Origin: Acidobacteriota bacterium | Lineage (GTDB): Bacteria; Acidobacteriota; Blastocatellia; Pyrinomonadales; Pyrinomonadaceae | Assembly: GCA_020199995.1 (NCBI GenBank) | Contig: JAIVJM010000001.1 | Coordinates: forward strand, 1-32,259 | Length of the DNA: 32,259 nucleotides | Direction of reading: 5' to 3' | Part shown: piece by piece, positions 13,431 through 28,186 of the stretch | Numbering within the stretch: position 1 is the stretch's first letter | How the letters are laid out: every line of letters starts with the position of its first letter | Translations under genes and position numbers: made by a program | Notes under the pieces: generated by a model | The model's input: the letters and a program-made list of their open reading frames with translations, nothing else | Told to the model about the DNA's origin: nothing | The model's database searches: none

Positions 13431-13475
13431 CCGACGCGTGTGAGCCGTGCTAGAATTCGCGGAAAACCAGTAAAC

Positions 13476-13567
13476 AGTTTTCAGTTTTCAGTTTTCAGCA
13501 GGGAGGGTTGAAAGAATCTGACGGTCTTTCGTTCCGGCTCGAAACTGAAAACTGAAAACTGAAAACT
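13476..13567. repeat. Perfect 23-bp inverted repeat of AGTTTTC units in the prmC-murA gap
   Basis: Three copies of AGTTTTC (13476-13496, plus AG) form the left arm, and the exact complement occupies 13545-13567. The 46-base centre contains a second, nested 6-bp hairpin (GAAAGA 13510-13515 with TCTTTC 13525-13530). The right arm ends four bases before the murA ATG, so the structure occupies the place of the murA ribosome-binding site. There is no trailing T-run, which argues against simple termination. Confidence 0.85.
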
Positions 13568-18069: not shown

Positions 18070-18989
18070 TGATGACGGTCGAGAACGCAATCGAGGCGCG
18101 GGAGCTGGCGAAGTCTTACGGGGCGGTCGAGGCCGTGCGCGGCGTCGCTCTCAAGGTTCCGCGCGGCTCTATCTACGGCTTTCTGGGGCGCAACGGCGCG
18201 GGCAAGACGACGACCATCAAGATGCTGCTCGGCATGACGAGCCCGACATCGGGCGGAGCTTCGGTCCTCGGTCGGGACATCGCGCGGCGTGACGAGAGCG
18301 TCGAGATTCGACGCCGCACCGGCTTTGTGAGCGAGGACAAAGGTCTCTACGACTTCATGACCATCGAGCAGCTCATACGCTTCACGCGCCCCTTCTTCCC
18401 CGGCTGGGACGTGGGGCTCGAGGCGAAATATCTGCGCGCCTTCGAGCTCCCGCCGCGCCGCAGGGTGAAGGCGCTGTCGAAGGGGATGCGGACGAAACTG
18501 GCGTTGCTCTTGGCGCTCGCGCGCGGCGCGGAGCTGCTCGTTCTGGACGAGCCGACCGAGGGGCTCGACCCGGCGATGGTCGAGGAACTGCTCTCGCTGC
18601 TCGCGGGGCTCGCCGCGTCTGGGGAGTTGACGATCTTCTTCTCCTCGCACCAGATCGCCGAGGTCGAACAGATCGCCGACCGCGTCTGCGTCATCCACCG
18701 CGGGCGCGTGGTGCTGGAGGGCGCGCTCGACGAACTGAAGGAGAGATACCACCGGGTCAACCTGATTTACGGCGAGGGCGCGACGCCGCCAGCCGCGTTC
18801 GCGACGCCGGGCGTCGAGCGGCTGAAGAGGGACGGGCGCTGGCTCACGCTCATGGTCAGTGAGAACGCCGAGCGCATCGCCGCAGAGGCCCGTGCCGACG
18901 GGGCGCTCTCGGCTGACCTGCTCCCCGTCGGGCTCAAAGAAATATTCCTCGAAACGGTCAGGGAAGAAAGTCAGAAGTCGGAACGATGA
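18066..18989 (+). CDS. ABC transporter ATP-binding protein
   Basis: The 307-residue ATPase has all ABC motifs: Walker A GRNGAGKTT (41-49), Q-loop-region SEDKGLYDFMT, signature LSKGM (137-141; LSGGQ-like, altered), Walker B LLVLDEPTEGLDP (157-169) and switch H195 in FSSHQIAEVE. The shortened LSKGMRTKLALLLAL signature is typical of the YtrB/CcmA-type ATPases paired with ABC-2 permeases and YtrA regulators. The ATP-binding domain ends near 220; the rest is a C-terminal extension. Its stop codon (18987-18989) lies inside the left arm of an inverted repeat that separates it from the permease. Confidence 0.93.
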   Translation: MMMTVENAIEARELAKSYGAVEAVRGVALKVPRGSIYGFLGRNGAGKTTTIKMLLGMTSPTSGGASVLGRDIARRDESVEIRRRTGFVSEDKGLYDFMTIEQLIRFTRPFFPGWDVGLEAKYLRAFELPPRRRVKALSKGMRTKLALLLALARGAELLVLDEPTEGLDPAMVEELLSLLAGLAASGELTIFFSSHQIAEVEQIADRVCVIHRGRVVLEGALDELKERYHRVNLIYGEGATPPAAFATPGVERLKRDGRWLTLMVSENAERIAAEARADGALSADLLPVGLKEIFLETVREESQKSER

Positions 18990-19043
18990 ACGATGAACGA
19001 ATAGCATCCGACTTGTCTTTACAGTTCATCGTTCTGACTTCTG
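18972..19043. repeat. Inverted repeat with GAACGAT seven-base units between ABC ATPase and permease
   Basis: Bases 18972-18991 pair with 19024-19043 over 20 bp with a single mismatch (tolerated as G-U in RNA). The left arm runs into GAACGAT, GAACGAT, GAACGA (18981-19000). The ATPase stop codon is within the arm, and the permease Shine-Dalgarno begins 13 bases after the right arm. A T-rich run (TTTGTTTTT, 19046-19054) follows, so it may act as a partial terminator. Confidence 0.75.
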
Positions 19044-19067
19044 CGTTTGTTTTTCCGGAGGTGCGTG

Positions 19068-23815: not shown

Positions 23816-26800
23816 TCAAGAGTCCGCTACCGCCGCGTTTTTCCGCAGCACGAACGTCGTCCCGCCTTCGGGCCTTCTCCTCCACATGACTTCGGCGTCA
23901 ATGATGCTGGCGCGCCCGCGGATGCCCGCGAGGCCGCGGCCCCCCCGCGCCTTCCGGTTATCGGCGTCGAAACCCTGCCCGTCGTCTTCGAGCGTGAGCA
24001 CGAAGAGACCTCTCTCCGAGAGGTGGACGCCGAGCCGGACGCGCGTGGCGTGCGCGTGGCGGCAGACGTTGCTGACGGCCTCCTGCACGATGCGATAGAC
24101 CTGCATCTGGACGCCCGGCGTGAGGCGCAGGCGCTCCTCCAAATCCTCGTCGCACACGAACTCATACGCGAACTTGCAGCCGGCTGGAAGGTGCGCGAGC
24201 GCCGAGGCGAGCGACCATTCGAGAGCGGCGGCGAACCCGACGTTCTCCAGCACTGACGGCGAGAGGTCTTCGCAGATGCGCCGCACCTCCTGCGAGATGG
24301 ACTCGATCTCTGAGCGCAGCAGCGCCGGGTCAACGCCGTCCGCCGCGACGCGCCCGTCCCCCGAGCCATCCGCGTCGCCGCCCTGAGCTATCGCCTCAAC
24401 GACGCCGGGAGCGTTCGCGGCTTCGCCGCCCGGAGCATTCGCGGCGACGCCTTCCGGCTGCATCTCGTCGGTGAGCAGGAGGAGGCGGCGGAGGTCTGCG
24501 AGCGTCTGGTCGTGGAGGTCGCGCGCGATGCGTCGGCGCTCGCTCTCGGCCTCGTTGGCGAGCCGGAGGCGCGCCGAGGCGAGTTGGCGGTTGGCGTCGC
24601 GCAGCTCCTCGCGGCTGCGCACGATGCGCCGGTGCTGGACGTAAGTCCAGACGAGCGCGACGAGCGCCAATGCGAGCAGCACCGAGAGCGCGACGGTCGT
24701 GCGGGGGAAAGGCGCGCGCGCCACCTCGAAGTCGAAGGCGAGCACATCCGAGGGCAGGAGGTCGAGCGTGTAGGCGCGCGCCTCGACGCGGTAGAGCCCG
24801 GCGGGGAGCGCCTCGATCTGGAACTGCGAGTCGTGCGAGAGCTTCTGCTTGACGACGCGGCCCTTCGAGTCGTGGAGCACGAAGGCGTACTGGAACTGCT
24901 CGGGGAAGGTGCGGCTGGCGCTGGCGGCCACGTCCACGACGAGGCTGTCTTCCGGGTAGTCGAGGCGGAGCACGCCGCCGCGCAGCTCTTCGGGCTGGTG
25001 CGTGCGCGAGGCCGTGACGCGCGTCAGGCGGAGCGCGGGCGCGAGCATGCCGGGCTCGTAGCGCGCGACACCTTTCGTCGTGCCGACGAGCAAAGTCTCC
25101 TCGCCGGATGCTCCCGCGCCGTTCGCTCCCGTGCCTGTACGCAGCACGGCGAAGGCGCTCTGCGTCGGCAGGCCCTGCTCGACGTCGAGCCCCGCGACGA
25201 CGGGGCCGAAGCGTTCGTCGAGCAAGACCTTGACGACGCCCGAGTCCGCCGTCGCGCACCACGCGCGCGCGGGGCCGCCCGCCGCCGACGGGATGACCAC
25301 GACGCCGCGCGCATCCACGCCGCGCACCACTTCCCAGACCGCGCCCGCATGGTGCACGTAGAGGCCGCGGCTCGTGGCGAGCCAGACGAGCCCGTCGGCG
25401 GCGGCGACGCCCCACACAGTACTGTCGCCGAGGGCGGCGAAGGTCGGGTCGCTCCTCACCTCGCGCCCGTCGAAGAAGAAGACGCCCGCGTTGGCCGTGC
25501 CGACCCAGAGGCGGCCCGCGCTCTCGTCGGCGTGGAGGCTCACGACCTCGCGCGCGCGCGCGTCCGAGCCCTCGCGCGGCCAGACGAGGGTGCGGCGTCC
25601 GGGGCCGTCGAAGCGCTCCAGGCCGCGCCCGAACGTGGCGACGTAGACCGCGTCGCCGAAGGCCGCGATGGCGCGCACGCTCCCCTTGAGCGCGGGCTCC
25701 GGCGTCTTCCGGGCGGGCTCCTTCACGCCCCCGCCCGCGTCCTTCTCTTGATCCCCCGGCGCGTGACGATTCCGCTCCGCGGCTGTCCCCTCGTTCGCCG
25801 CGTCAGTCGCCTTCCCGGACTCCCCCTCGTCCGGCTCCGTCCGCGCCGCCGCGCCGCCAACCGGACTCGACCGCTTCGCCCTCCCGGCGTCCTCCTCCTC
25901 TCCCCTCTCTTCCTCCGGCGCGAGCTTCACAGCGCGTCCCGGCACGCCCCCCCCGGTCTGGAGTCCGACGTAGAGGCCCGACGAAGTGCCGACGAGAATT
26001 TGCCCGCGGCGGTCTTCGGCGACCGCGTAGACGGCCTTGCCCGCGACCTCTTCGACGGCGCGCCAGACGCCCGCTCCTTCGTCGCGCGCGAAGAGGCCGC
26101 GGTTGGTTCCGACGAGGAGGCGGCCCGCGTTCGTGCGGTAGAGCGAGCGGACGAAGTTGGCCTCCGTCTCGGTCGAGAGCGTCTCGACGCGCACGCCCTG
26201 CGGGTCATAGCGGCAGACGCCACGGTTGGTGCCGAACCAGACGACGCCCTCGCGGTCAACAAAGACCGCGCTCACTCGGTCTGAGCGCAGCCCGCCCGCC
26301 GTGCCCGCGAAGGTGAAGTGCTCGAAGACCTGCTCGCCACGGTAGCGGAAGACGCCCTGCCCGTCCGTCGCGGCGTACAAGTCGCCGCCCGCGCCGCGCG
26401 CCAGACCCGTGACCGTGCCTGTCGCGCCGCCCGCCGCCATCTTGACCGTGCGCCACACTTGCGGCCCCGCGCCCTCGATTTTGAAGAGTCCGCTCTCGCC
26501 GACCGAAGTCTGTACGCCGACGCGGACGCCGCCTTGTGCGTCTACCGCGAGCGCCTCGACGAAGAAGACGCGCGGGCGGCCCGAGACCTCCTTGAGAGTG
26601 CCTTCGGGCGTGACCGCGAGGAGCCCGCGGCCACGCGTCCCGACGAGCAGCGTCTCGCCTGAGGCGGCGAGGCTCGTTAGTCCGAGCGGCTGGCTCTTCC
26701 CGGCGGCGGTGACGGGCTCGGCGAGCAGCGTGCGCGCCGTGAACGAACCGTCCGGCTGCTTCCGGCAGTCGAAGAGGAGGCCGTCGCCCGTCGCCAGCAG

Positions 26801-27325
26801 CGTGCGGCCCCCGGCGGGCGTGTTGATGGCCGTCACCGCCTTGCCCTTCGTCTCGGAGAGCAGGCGGAAGCGCGTGCCGTCGTCGCCGCCCGCGCGCACG
26901 AAAGCGCCCACCTCAGTCCCGACCCACAGCTCGCCCTCGACACCGACGCGCACCACCAGCACGCGCCGCCCGGCGAGCCCTTCGTCCGTCACGGTCTGCG
27001 TCCGCCGCCCGTCGTAGCGCGCCAGCCCCGCGTCCGTCCCGAACCACATCACGCCCTCCGCGTCCTGTGCAATCGCGCGCACCATGTCCGAAGGCAGTCC
27101 ATGGAAGAGCGTCACCGCGCCCCACTGGTGGAGGCTCGACGGCAGCGCCTGAGAGAAGGCAAAAGGCAAAAGGTAAAAGGCGAAAGGGAGGAGGCAGAAA
27201 GCGAGTGCGAGGCCAGAGGCTAGTGCCTTGAGGCTTGAGACTACAGACTTGGGGCTTGAGACATACGAATAGCCAGCCTCAAGCCTCAAGCCTCTAGCCT
27301 CCTTCCTTTTCTGCCTGTCCGTCAC
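23816..27325 (-). CDS. Propeller-type sensor histidine kinase (NarL/LiaS class)
   Basis: From N to C the 1169-residue frame encodes: a signal peptide built from seven-base repeats (to about residue 60); two beta-propellers of two-component-regulator repeats (WFGTDAGLARYDG, LLVGTNRGLFARDEG, LWVGTANAGVFFFDG; about 65-780); and a Y_Y_Y Ig-like domain (about 790-872). Then come one transmembrane helix (878-895), a coiled linker, a HisKA_3 domain with phospho-acceptor H938 in RRRIARDLHDQTLADL, and an HATPase with QEAVSN (1081-1086), DDGQGF and GRGLAGI. A Glu/Arg-rich linker (about 466-546) interrupts the propeller, and an insert (about 957-1001) splits the dimerisation helices. The GTG start at 27325 overlaps the response regulator stop by four bases. 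The ligand is unknown. Confidence 0.9.
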   Translation of the reverse strand: MTDRQKRKEARGLRLEAGYSYVSSPKSVVSSLKALASGLALAFCLLPFAFYLLPFAFSQALPSSLHQWGAVTLFHGLPSDMVRAIAQDAEGVMWFGTDAGLARYDGRRTQTVTDEGLAGRRVLVVRVGVEGELWVGTEVGAFVRAGGDDGTRFRLLSETKGKAVTAINTPAGGRTLLATGDGLLFDCRKQPDGSFTARTLLAEPVTAAGKSQPLGLTSLAASGETLLVGTRGRGLLAVTPEGTLKEVSGRPRVFFVEALAVDAQGGVRVGVQTSVGESGLFKIEGAGPQVWRTVKMAAGGATGTVTGLARGAGGDLYAATDGQGVFRYRGEQVFEHFTFAGTAGGLRSDRVSAVFVDREGVVWFGTNRGVCRYDPQGVRVETLSTETEANFVRSLYRTNAGRLLVGTNRGLFARDEGAGVWRAVEEVAGKAVYAVAEDRRGQILVGTSSGLYVGLQTGGGVPGRAVKLAPEEERGEEEDAGRAKRSSPVGGAAARTEPDEGESGKATDAANEGTAAERNRHAPGDQEKDAGGGVKEPARKTPEPALKGSVRAIAAFGDAVYVATFGRGLERFDGPGRRTLVWPREGSDARAREVVSLHADESAGRLWVGTANAGVFFFDGREVRSDPTFAALGDSTVWGVAAADGLVWLATSRGLYVHHAGAVWEVVRGVDARGVVVIPSAAGGPARAWCATADSGVVKVLLDERFGPVVAGLDVEQGLPTQSAFAVLRTGTGANGAGASGEETLLVGTTKGVARYEPGMLAPALRLTRVTASRTHQPEELRGGVLRLDYPEDSLVVDVAASASRTFPEQFQYAFVLHDSKGRVVKQKLSHDSQFQIEALPAGLYRVEARAYTLDLLPSDVLAFDFEVARAPFPRTTVALSVLLALALVALVWTYVQHRRIVRSREELRDANRQLASARLRLANEAESERRRIARDLHDQTLADLRRLLLLTDEMQPEGVAANAPGGEAANAPGVVEAIAQGGDADGSGDGRVAADGVDPALLRSEIESISQEVRRICEDLSPSVLENVGFAAALEWSLASALAHLPAGCKFAYEFVCDEDLEERLRLTPGVQMQVYRIVQEAVSNVCRHAHATRVRLGVHLSERGLFVLTLEDDGQGFDADNRKARGGRGLAGIRGRASIIDAEVMWRRRPEGGTTFVLRKNAAVADS
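27158..27301. repeat. Seven-base repeat cluster inside the 5' end of the kinase gene
   Basis: Four GGCAAAA-type units run at 27158-27185. Five CTTGAGA-type units run at 27227-27261, and three CCTCAAG-type units at 27277-27297. Bases 27216-27242 and 27275-27301 are inverted 27-base arms with three mismatches. All of this lies within the frame of the histidine kinase and is translated if the GTG start at 27325 is used; the GGCAAAA block then encodes the peptide LLPFAFYLLPFAF of the signal sequence. Confidence 0.8.
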
Positions 27326-28077
27326 GGCTTCGGCTCGTCGAGGAATCTTTTGCGGTCGCGCTCGATCCAGATTTCAAGCTCGACCGAGGCCTTCTCCAGC
27401 TCGTCGCTGTTGAGCAGGCCGCGCCGGAGCGCCTCGAAGAAGGCGCGCGTGCGCATGTTGTAGGCGAGCTTTTCGTAAGCCTCGTGAGGCGTGCCCTCGG
27501 GCGTCGAGGTGAAGAGCTTTTCGTAGAGCGTGGCGAGGCGGCTCTCGACGCCGCGTAAGGAAAGAGAGCACTTGCGCGCAATCGCCCAGTTCGAGAGGCC
27601 GAGCGCGAGGTAGTAGAGCGCCTCGGCCTCGAACTCTGTGAGGAGCGGTCGCTTGAAAGAGTCCTTGAAGGCCGGGTCGATCATGTCCGCGCCGTCTTCC
27701 AAGACCGCGGCGACGAAGCGCAGAAAGCGCGACTCGGGGTTGTTCTTATGGATGAAGCCGTAGGCGGGCGGCGGCTCGACCGCGCGGATGATCTTGCGTA
27801 TCTCGTTGATGTAAATCTCGTGCGGGAACTGCGTCCAGAAGATGATGCGCGCCGCGGGGAATTCGCGCCACACCGCGCGCGCCGCCTTGACGCCCGACAA
27901 GCGCGGCATCTGGATGTCGAAGACGCACAATTCGGGCCGCTCTTTGAGCGCAAGCTGCACGGCCTCCTCGCCGTCCGCCGCCTCGACGACGGGCGCGTGC
28001 GCCGGGAACTCACGCTCCAAAAGCTCACGCAGGTAACGCCGCTGCGCCACGTTGTCTTCGGCAATCAGGATGGACAT
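27322..28077 (-). CDS. Response regulator with REC domain and LuxR-type HTH
   Basis: From ATG at 28077 the product is 251 residues. REC domain: acidic pocket E7-D8 in ILIAEDNVAQ, phospho-acceptor D54 in CVFDIQMPRLSG, T82 in FWTQFP, K111 in FIHKNNPE. A LuxR-type helix-turn-helix follows (about 145-190: FEAEALYYLALGLSNWAIARKCSLSLRGVESRLATLYEKL), then an unusual helical C-terminal extension of 60 residues rich in Leu and Glu. The open frame continues upstream to 28194, but that extension (DIRHPTSDL) is a translation of the seven-base repeats, so 28077 is preferred. It is the first gene of a two-gene unit with the propeller kinase, its obvious partner. Confidence 0.9.
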   Translation of the reverse strand: MSILIAEDNVAQRRYLRELLEREFPAHAPVVEAADGEEAVQLALKERPELCVFDIQMPRLSGVKAARAVWREFPAARIIFWTQFPHEIYINEIRKIIRAVEPPPAYGFIHKNNPESRFLRFVAAVLEDGADMIDPAFKDSFKRPLLTEFEAEALYYLALGLSNWAIARKCSLSLRGVESRLATLYEKLFTSTPEGTPHEAYEKLAYNMRTRAFFEALRRGLLNSDELEKASVELEIWIERDRKRFLDEPKP

Positions 28078-28083
28078 GAGATC

Positions 28084-28186
28084 AGATGTCGGATGTCGAA
28101 TGTCAGAGGTCAGTAAGCACGGTCTCGGATTCGACGCTCTACGCCGCCGTGCTCCGATTCTAGCAGAACTCTCACGTCCGACATCT
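28084..28186. repeat. GATGTCG seven-base repeats and inverted repeat upstream of the response regulator
   Basis: Four seven-base units (GATGTCG, GATGTCG, AATGTCA, GAGGTCA) run at 28085-28112. The outer arms 28084-28096 and 28174-28186 match at 12 of 13 bases. A nested 7-bp hairpin (AGCACGG 28116-28122 with CCGTGCT 28147-28153) lies between. The element sits immediately before the response regulator start, in its leader. Confidence 0.7.

Follow-up and report, generated by a model that had tools for sequence, protein, structure and literature searches.

The window, as the whole 32,259-nucleotide stretch analyzed is called here, comes from a soil acidobacterium and carries an operon in which the gene of a response regulator precedes that of a histidine kinase. 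Reg_prop repeats and a HATPase_c domain occur together in the kinase, identifying it as a two-component regulator propeller kinase; 34 loci related to it were found, nearly all acidobacterial. The two genes meet in a GTGA overlap, the TGA stop codon of the regulator beginning on the last two bases of the kinase GTG codon (27325 onward). The features of this junction are the following.

23816..27325, minus strand: two-component regulator propeller histidine kinase, 1169 aa, GTG start; Reg_prop PF07494 and HATPase_c PF02518 (Pfam)
27322..28076, minus strand: response regulator (Response_reg, GerE), upstream of the kinase in the operon; likely ATG start, MSILIAED
27273..27316, minus strand: purine (5') arm AGGCAGAAAAGGAAGGAGGCTAGAGGCTTGAGGCTTGAGGCT, read as basic n-region RQKRKEARGLRLEAG; inverted repeat I1, 27 nt, 89% complementary
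27216..27262, minus strand: TCTCAAG/CCTCAAG heptads, inverse partner of the GAGGCTT arm; translated VSSPKSVVSSLKALAS
27152..27205, minus strand: pyrimidine (3') arm, a degenerate TTTTGCC array read as hydrophobic core LAFCLLPFAFYLLPFAFS; used for the period-7 chance tests
27146..27157, minus strand: plausible signal-peptidase site, AFS-Q or SQA-L, of which AFS-Q is the orthologue pattern; no cleavage predictor used

About 65 codons, nearly all built of heptamers, separate the regulator stop from LHQWGAVTLFHGLPSD, the first conserved propeller motif. The kinase frame (27325..23816, minus strand) is open all through this cluster, and the N-terminus reads MTDRQKRKEARGLRLEAGYSYVSSPKSVVSSLKALASGLALAFCLLPFAFYLLPFAFSQALPSS-LHQWGAVTLFHGLPSD. 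The passage of the frame through the repeats with heptapeptides LLPFAFY and LLPFAFS, proposed in an earlier note on this DNA, was borne out, the two being encoded at 27193-27173 and 27172-27152, respectively; the SQA cleavage site it had suggested after the core is also there (27154-27146), slightly beyond the segment that note had delimited. In a register read by eye, the heptads run TCTCAAG CCCCAAG TCTGTAG TCTCAAG CCTCAAG GCACTAG CCTCTGG CCTCGCA and continue, after CTCGCTT, with TCTGCCT CCTCCCT TTCGCCT TTTACCT TTTGCCT TTTGCCT. The purine arm AGGCAGAAAAGGAAGGAGGCTAGAGGCTTGAGGCTTGAGGCT faces this run, and together with the TCTCAAG/CCTCAAG heptads it forms a predicted stem (z = -2.3). The kinase array is short, with about two perfect units and imperfect ones otherwise.

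Judged by eye and by hydropathy, without a predictor, the leader has the features of a Sec signal peptide: a basic RQKRKEARGLRLEAG stretch, a hydrophobic LAFCLLPFAFYLLPFAF stretch and small residues at -3/-1 of either candidate site. The TTTTGCC arm reads LLPFAFYLLPFAFS ahead of the plausible cleavage site, QALPSS follows directly after LAFCLLPFAFYLLPFAFS, and AFSQ or FSQ recurs in the equivalent position of four orthologues (L176, L179, L181 and L193). The whole inverted pair is translated in this frame, and the basic n-region is therefore also repeat-derived. The kinase has a second hydrophobic stretch before its kinase domain; an N-terminal export signal is therefore expected. The repeat part looks non-coding (codon-usage log-odds -0.015 versus 0.31; GC 54% versus 73%), which fits a captured intergenic element and is no positive evidence of translation.

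No ATG, GTG or TTG occurs downstream of the last array before the conserved propeller motif begins, so that a true start after 27158, which would have refuted the earlier note, finds no support. Upstream of the hydrophobic array the only such codons in frame are GTG 27325 and TTG 27289, a further in-frame TTG (27169) falling within the array itself. The codon TTG 27289 is preceded by AGGAGG, and starting there would shorten the n-region, which is long with GTG 27325. It was weighed as the kinase start and disfavored, since the GTGA overlap with the regulator stop recurs in orthologues L170 and L173; GTG 27325 was accordingly preferred. Translation from this codon, export and cleavage are all inferred from the nucleotide sequence.

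Leaders of kinase orthologues and of other proteins

Kinase orthologues carrying the anchor motif (43) were scored for an array in the open frame before that motif. Heptamer arrays were found in the leader of 16, and in 14 of these the array overlapped the most hydrophobic 13-mer, compared with 4.6 expected for random placement. The unit was TTTTGCC in the window, L170, L173 and L174; of TTCTGCC/TACTGCC type in L175, L177, L179, L180, L188, L189, L190 and L193; GCTCACT in L176 and L181; and TTCTGGC in L197. The remaining orthologues had ordinary signal peptides in the same position. Parsimony on a tree of the propeller region, obtained by a quick search and with several weak forks, required at least nine gains or losses of array presence. 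In the closest pair, L182 and L189, the flanks KLTTCATSLL (before) and AQNE.PSPPAQ (after) are identical and the sequences differ by the array between them, the core ATLFLATMPSLTLGLLTK being replaced by a heptamer-coded TVFLLSAYCLLPSASTRGLLPR.

These data bear on the proposal of the earlier note that the repeats supplied a secretion signal or replaced one. It is supported by the alternation, among orthologues, of several types of repeat unit with ordinary signal peptides and, as regards replacement, by close pairs in which the hydrophobic core is swapped between conserved flanks. A conserved non-repeat signal peptide in close relatives would have spoken against it; the nearest relatives have TTTTGCC-type (L170, L173 and L174) or degenerate heptamer (L171) signal peptides, and non-repeat ones are present in more distant relatives.

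Two other features were observed around the leader of this kinase. Arrays of octamers (GACGCGGG-type) and nonamers lie near it in L209, L205 and L202; in L209, the orthologue of genome G014, the purine arm is read as RRGDAGTRGRG and its complement as SPRLRVSASPRL. Long Ser-Pro repeats (SPSPSPSP) stand right behind the signal peptide in many orthologues, e.g. L177, L193 and L203.

The phenomenon is not confined to the kinase gene, a refinement of the earlier note, as is the translation of the whole inverted pair. In G014, a leader similar to that of the kinase belongs to an unrelated protein, the cytochrome c lipoprotein L125, which may resemble the ActE lipoprotein of alternative complex III. 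Heptamer arrays of several units occupy the leader in 19 of 28 orthologues of this lipoprotein and end, in most cases, at the lipobox just before the cysteine, as in LLTAYCLLAVGC or LLPTAYCLLFSGC. On the cytochrome tree, array presence changed seven times and the unit 18 times. The genome of the window has its own copy with an array leader, MWSTKKSEQRAESREQVGRRRRAVFCCLLLTAYCLLSLGC. In the comparisons of cytochrome and own-genome leaders, lags other than seven were near zero. The orthologues compared are related sequences and are not independent samples.

Cytochrome leaders (L125/L210-L239 and L260) are a hot spot for arrays, with a higher incidence than the kinase. The overlap of stop and start codons within an operon is suspected to be the reason why these two genes gather arrays.

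Single further cases were a beta-lactamase/NamZ protein (L120), a POTRA/Omp85 protein (L132) and a YCF48-like protein of the window's genome (L078). Elsewhere, arrays in an N-terminal frame were rare (9/204 own-genome genes and 6/135 flanking genes), and an array lay on the hydrophobic segment in one of 142 other genes with hydrophobic N-termini. No array-coded signal peptide was found among 60 genes with hydrophobic N-termini in an unbiased 388 kb sample of a relative, G028, indicating that certain genes, and not secreted proteins at large, are where such signal peptides accumulate. Of the "in-frame N-terminal" arrays of G014, the majority were mere upstream extensions of the frame before a good ATG, and were left uncounted. 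The exact pattern of two perfect heptamers followed by AFSQ codons occurred, among 162 genomes, in the window only, a shifted control giving two unrelated sites; this pattern is too strict to gauge generality.

Period, frame and arm order of the heptamers

Seven was the only clearly over-represented period both in the window and in a 286 kb sample of its genome that includes the window. In this sample, 26 arrays had period 7 versus 4-11 at other lags, about four per lag being masked N runs. Arrays of the own-genome sample lay outside predicted genes in 20 of 22 cases and had many different units, and close inverted pairs numbered 65 among 220 arrays of the genome samples. The arrays thus combine the properties of an intergenic heptamer element (period 7, several units, dispersed and mostly intergenic) with an inverted layout. 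Array rates rest on samples and not on whole genomes, gene calls come from a simple codon model, and the sequences are from MAGs. Further arrays of the window are:

2114-2182: AATGATG/ATTCATC inverted pair, intergenic
13475-13567: CAGTTTT/AAACTGA inverted pair, intergenic
18965-19050: GAACGAT with partial partner, intergenic
28077-28119: heptamer array adjoining the response-regulator ATG upstream; an open frame passes through it (LTSDIRHPTSDL)

The last of these is probably untranslated, a negative example of frame extension through repeats. The occurrence of similar inverted pairs elsewhere and the period-7 excess place the kinase cluster among the intergenic heptamer palindromes that occur throughout the genome. 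Inverted pairs of TTTTGCC are often located immediately behind stop codons (L001-L012, G014 loci), where they may serve as bidirectional terminators or mRNA 3'-end hairpins.

Since 7 is coprime with 3, a heptamer array encodes one and the same cyclic heptapeptide whichever frame of a strand is read, so that only the total length and the absence of stops must fit. To this extent the earlier note was right about heptamer runs in general; its expectation that such runs tend to give hydrophobic heptapeptides proved too broad, as 110 strand readings of intergenic arrays comprised 39 hydrophobic, 30 polar and 41 with a stop. Stops and polar readings leave only some units as a possible source of signal peptides. 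In the leaders studied here, the peptides read from purine-rich units are rich in K/R/E/G/Q, and those read from the complements of these units in L/F/P/A/C. With arms of such opposite hydropathy, an inverted pair that begins with the purine arm and stands in an open frame encodes a basic n-region and, after it, a hydrophobic core.

Units in h-regions were hydrophobic in 30 of 30 cases, a result that is partly circular, since hydropathy had defined the h-region arrays; it was therefore set aside for comparisons of frame openness, which is independent of hydropathy, and of arm order. Of the arrays near starts, 22/23 in kinase genes and 26/26 in cytochrome genes (48/49 in total) left the frame of the gene open, compared with 28/94 in the background, which consisted of arrays no more than 150 nt upstream of other genes (Fisher P about 1e-16, a value inflated by the relatedness of the sequences). 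Where both arms were in frame, the purine arm came first in all 12 leaders counted (six kinases and six cytochromes), as against 35 purine-first and 30 pyrimidine-first among the 65 inverted pairs of the genome samples.

Origin of the kinase leader

Taken as a reading of sequence data, it is very likely that the N-terminal 58 or so codons of the kinase are a captured intergenic pair of facing heptamer arrays that would act as an ordinary Sec signal peptide. Such an element is inferred to reach an operon junction by insertion or slippage and, landing where stop and start overlap, to fall into the 5' end of the downstream gene. Its purine-rich heptamers would yield a Lys/Arg/Glu-rich peptide and the reverse complements a Leu/Phe/Pro/Ala-rich one, and the resulting signal peptide would carry the propeller sensor across the inner membrane. 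The element would survive in a downstream gene that requires a signal peptide, provided that the reading frame is preserved; signal peptides may simply be those parts of coding sequence in which arrays of this sort are tolerated.

Heptamer arrays in inverted pairs are frequent, chiefly between genes; the region is predicted to form a stable stem, its codon usage is not coding-like, and the array at 28077-28119 illustrates that the upstream frame of the regulator can cross an array unused. All this would suit repeats that merely form a hairpin between the two genes, for regulation or RNA stability, with an open frame that is incidental and a kinase that starts elsewhere or is expressed without a signal peptide. 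We regard this as improbable, given the lack of a start codon after the last array, a frame kept open over kinase and cytochrome arrays far beyond the 30% of background arrays, and the coincidence of arrays with the hydrophobic core in the kinase and with lipoboxes in the cytochrome. The repeats could have a structural function in the RNA in addition to coding for a signal peptide.

Still more doubtful is a phase-variation switch, in which gain or loss of one unit would turn the kinase off or on by frameshift. A unit not divisible by three inside the 5' end of a coding region invites this reading, and CTCTT in opa leader peptides of Neisseria is a direct precedent (PMC4534519, PMC3960869); however, slippage should be rare in arrays this short and imperfect, and practically every relative sampled preserves the frame. 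This judgment on switching rests on a single MAG, without population data. Signal peptides are generally of low complexity and rich in Leu, and the repetition in the DNA could be a mere by-product of Leu/Phe/Pro/Ala composition and codon bias in an ordinary inherited signal peptide, an account that is scarcely tenable because recoding with synonymous codons, drawn according to their usage in the kinase, equaled the best lag-7 match in only 7 of 10,000 trials and the extent of the signal in none of 10,000, codon-order shuffles reached neither in 10,000, other lags were near zero in the leader comparisons and close relatives carry different units at the same place.

Capture of a heptamer pair is thus retained as the origin of the kinase leader. 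That signal peptides of Pyrinomonadaceae-like acidobacteria have come time and again from heptamer palindromes of intergenic DNA is likewise a putative reading, in which export is inferred. In its full form, which we consider probable, signal peptides in these bacteria would turn over by capturing such palindromes, with the n-region derived from the purine arm and the hydrophobic core, or the signal of a lipoprotein, from the pyrimidine arm. Capture would recur at the orthologous operon junctions of the propeller kinase and the cytochrome c lipoprotein and would happen occasionally in other genes (NamZ/beta-lactamase, POTRA/Omp85 and YCF48-like proteins), so that a selfish or slippage-born repeat would be a standing source of secretion signals.

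Significance and relation to known systems

The origin and fast divergence of signal peptides are poorly documented; here, exchange of the core is visible between close orthologues and the DNA source is recognizable. From the rule that the two arms of an inverted repeat read first as basic and then as hydrophobic peptide, one can predict which repeat elements are able to turn into export signals. There is also a warning for gene finders: such leaders look non-coding, and a start called behind the repeats would delete the signal peptide.

A literature search that covered few subscription journals turned up no account of heptamer palindromes being used repeatedly as signal peptides by Acidobacteria. 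Repeats in signal peptides (opa), in-frame palindromic elements and intergenic heptamers are each already known. Intergenic heptanucleotide repeats have been described in cyanobacteria, as the GGGAATC type of Xanthomonas and Nostoc (PMC4692102) and as TAACTGA in Beggiatoaceae (PMC4679880); as far as the accessible parts of these sources go, they too are seven-base tandem arrays enriched in intergenic DNA, are treated mainly as intergenic or regulatory, and are not mentioned in connection with signal peptides. Rickettsia palindromic elements (RPE) and the small mobile elements ERIC and YPAL of enterobacteria form in-frame fusions to genes, including fusions with predicted transmembrane or signal-peptide segments (reviewed in PMC2229807). 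Like the acidobacterial elements they are dispersed, palindromic, mostly intergenic and sometimes translated in frame; unlike them, they are families of defined sequence, whereas the acidobacterial elements share period 7 and an inverted layout with many unit sequences and are repeatedly exchanged at one orthologous position. In nematomorph mitochondrial genes (PMC6649704), both arms of coding palindromes are likewise translated into functional protein, but these are perfect long hairpins within conserved enzyme regions, neither tandem arrays nor signal peptides. The closest likeness in coding terms is to Neisseria opa, where phase-variable CTCTT repeats lie in the region encoding the leader peptide (PMC4534519, PMC3960869): as in the kinase, a short tandem repeat whose unit length is no multiple of three codes for part of a signal peptide and gives an identical cyclic peptide from every frame of a strand. 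The opa repeat is a pentamer of one gene family and phase variable, whereas the acidobacterial arrays are heptamers of several sequences and low copy number, occur in at least five unrelated protein families and, as inverted pairs, also code for the n-region.
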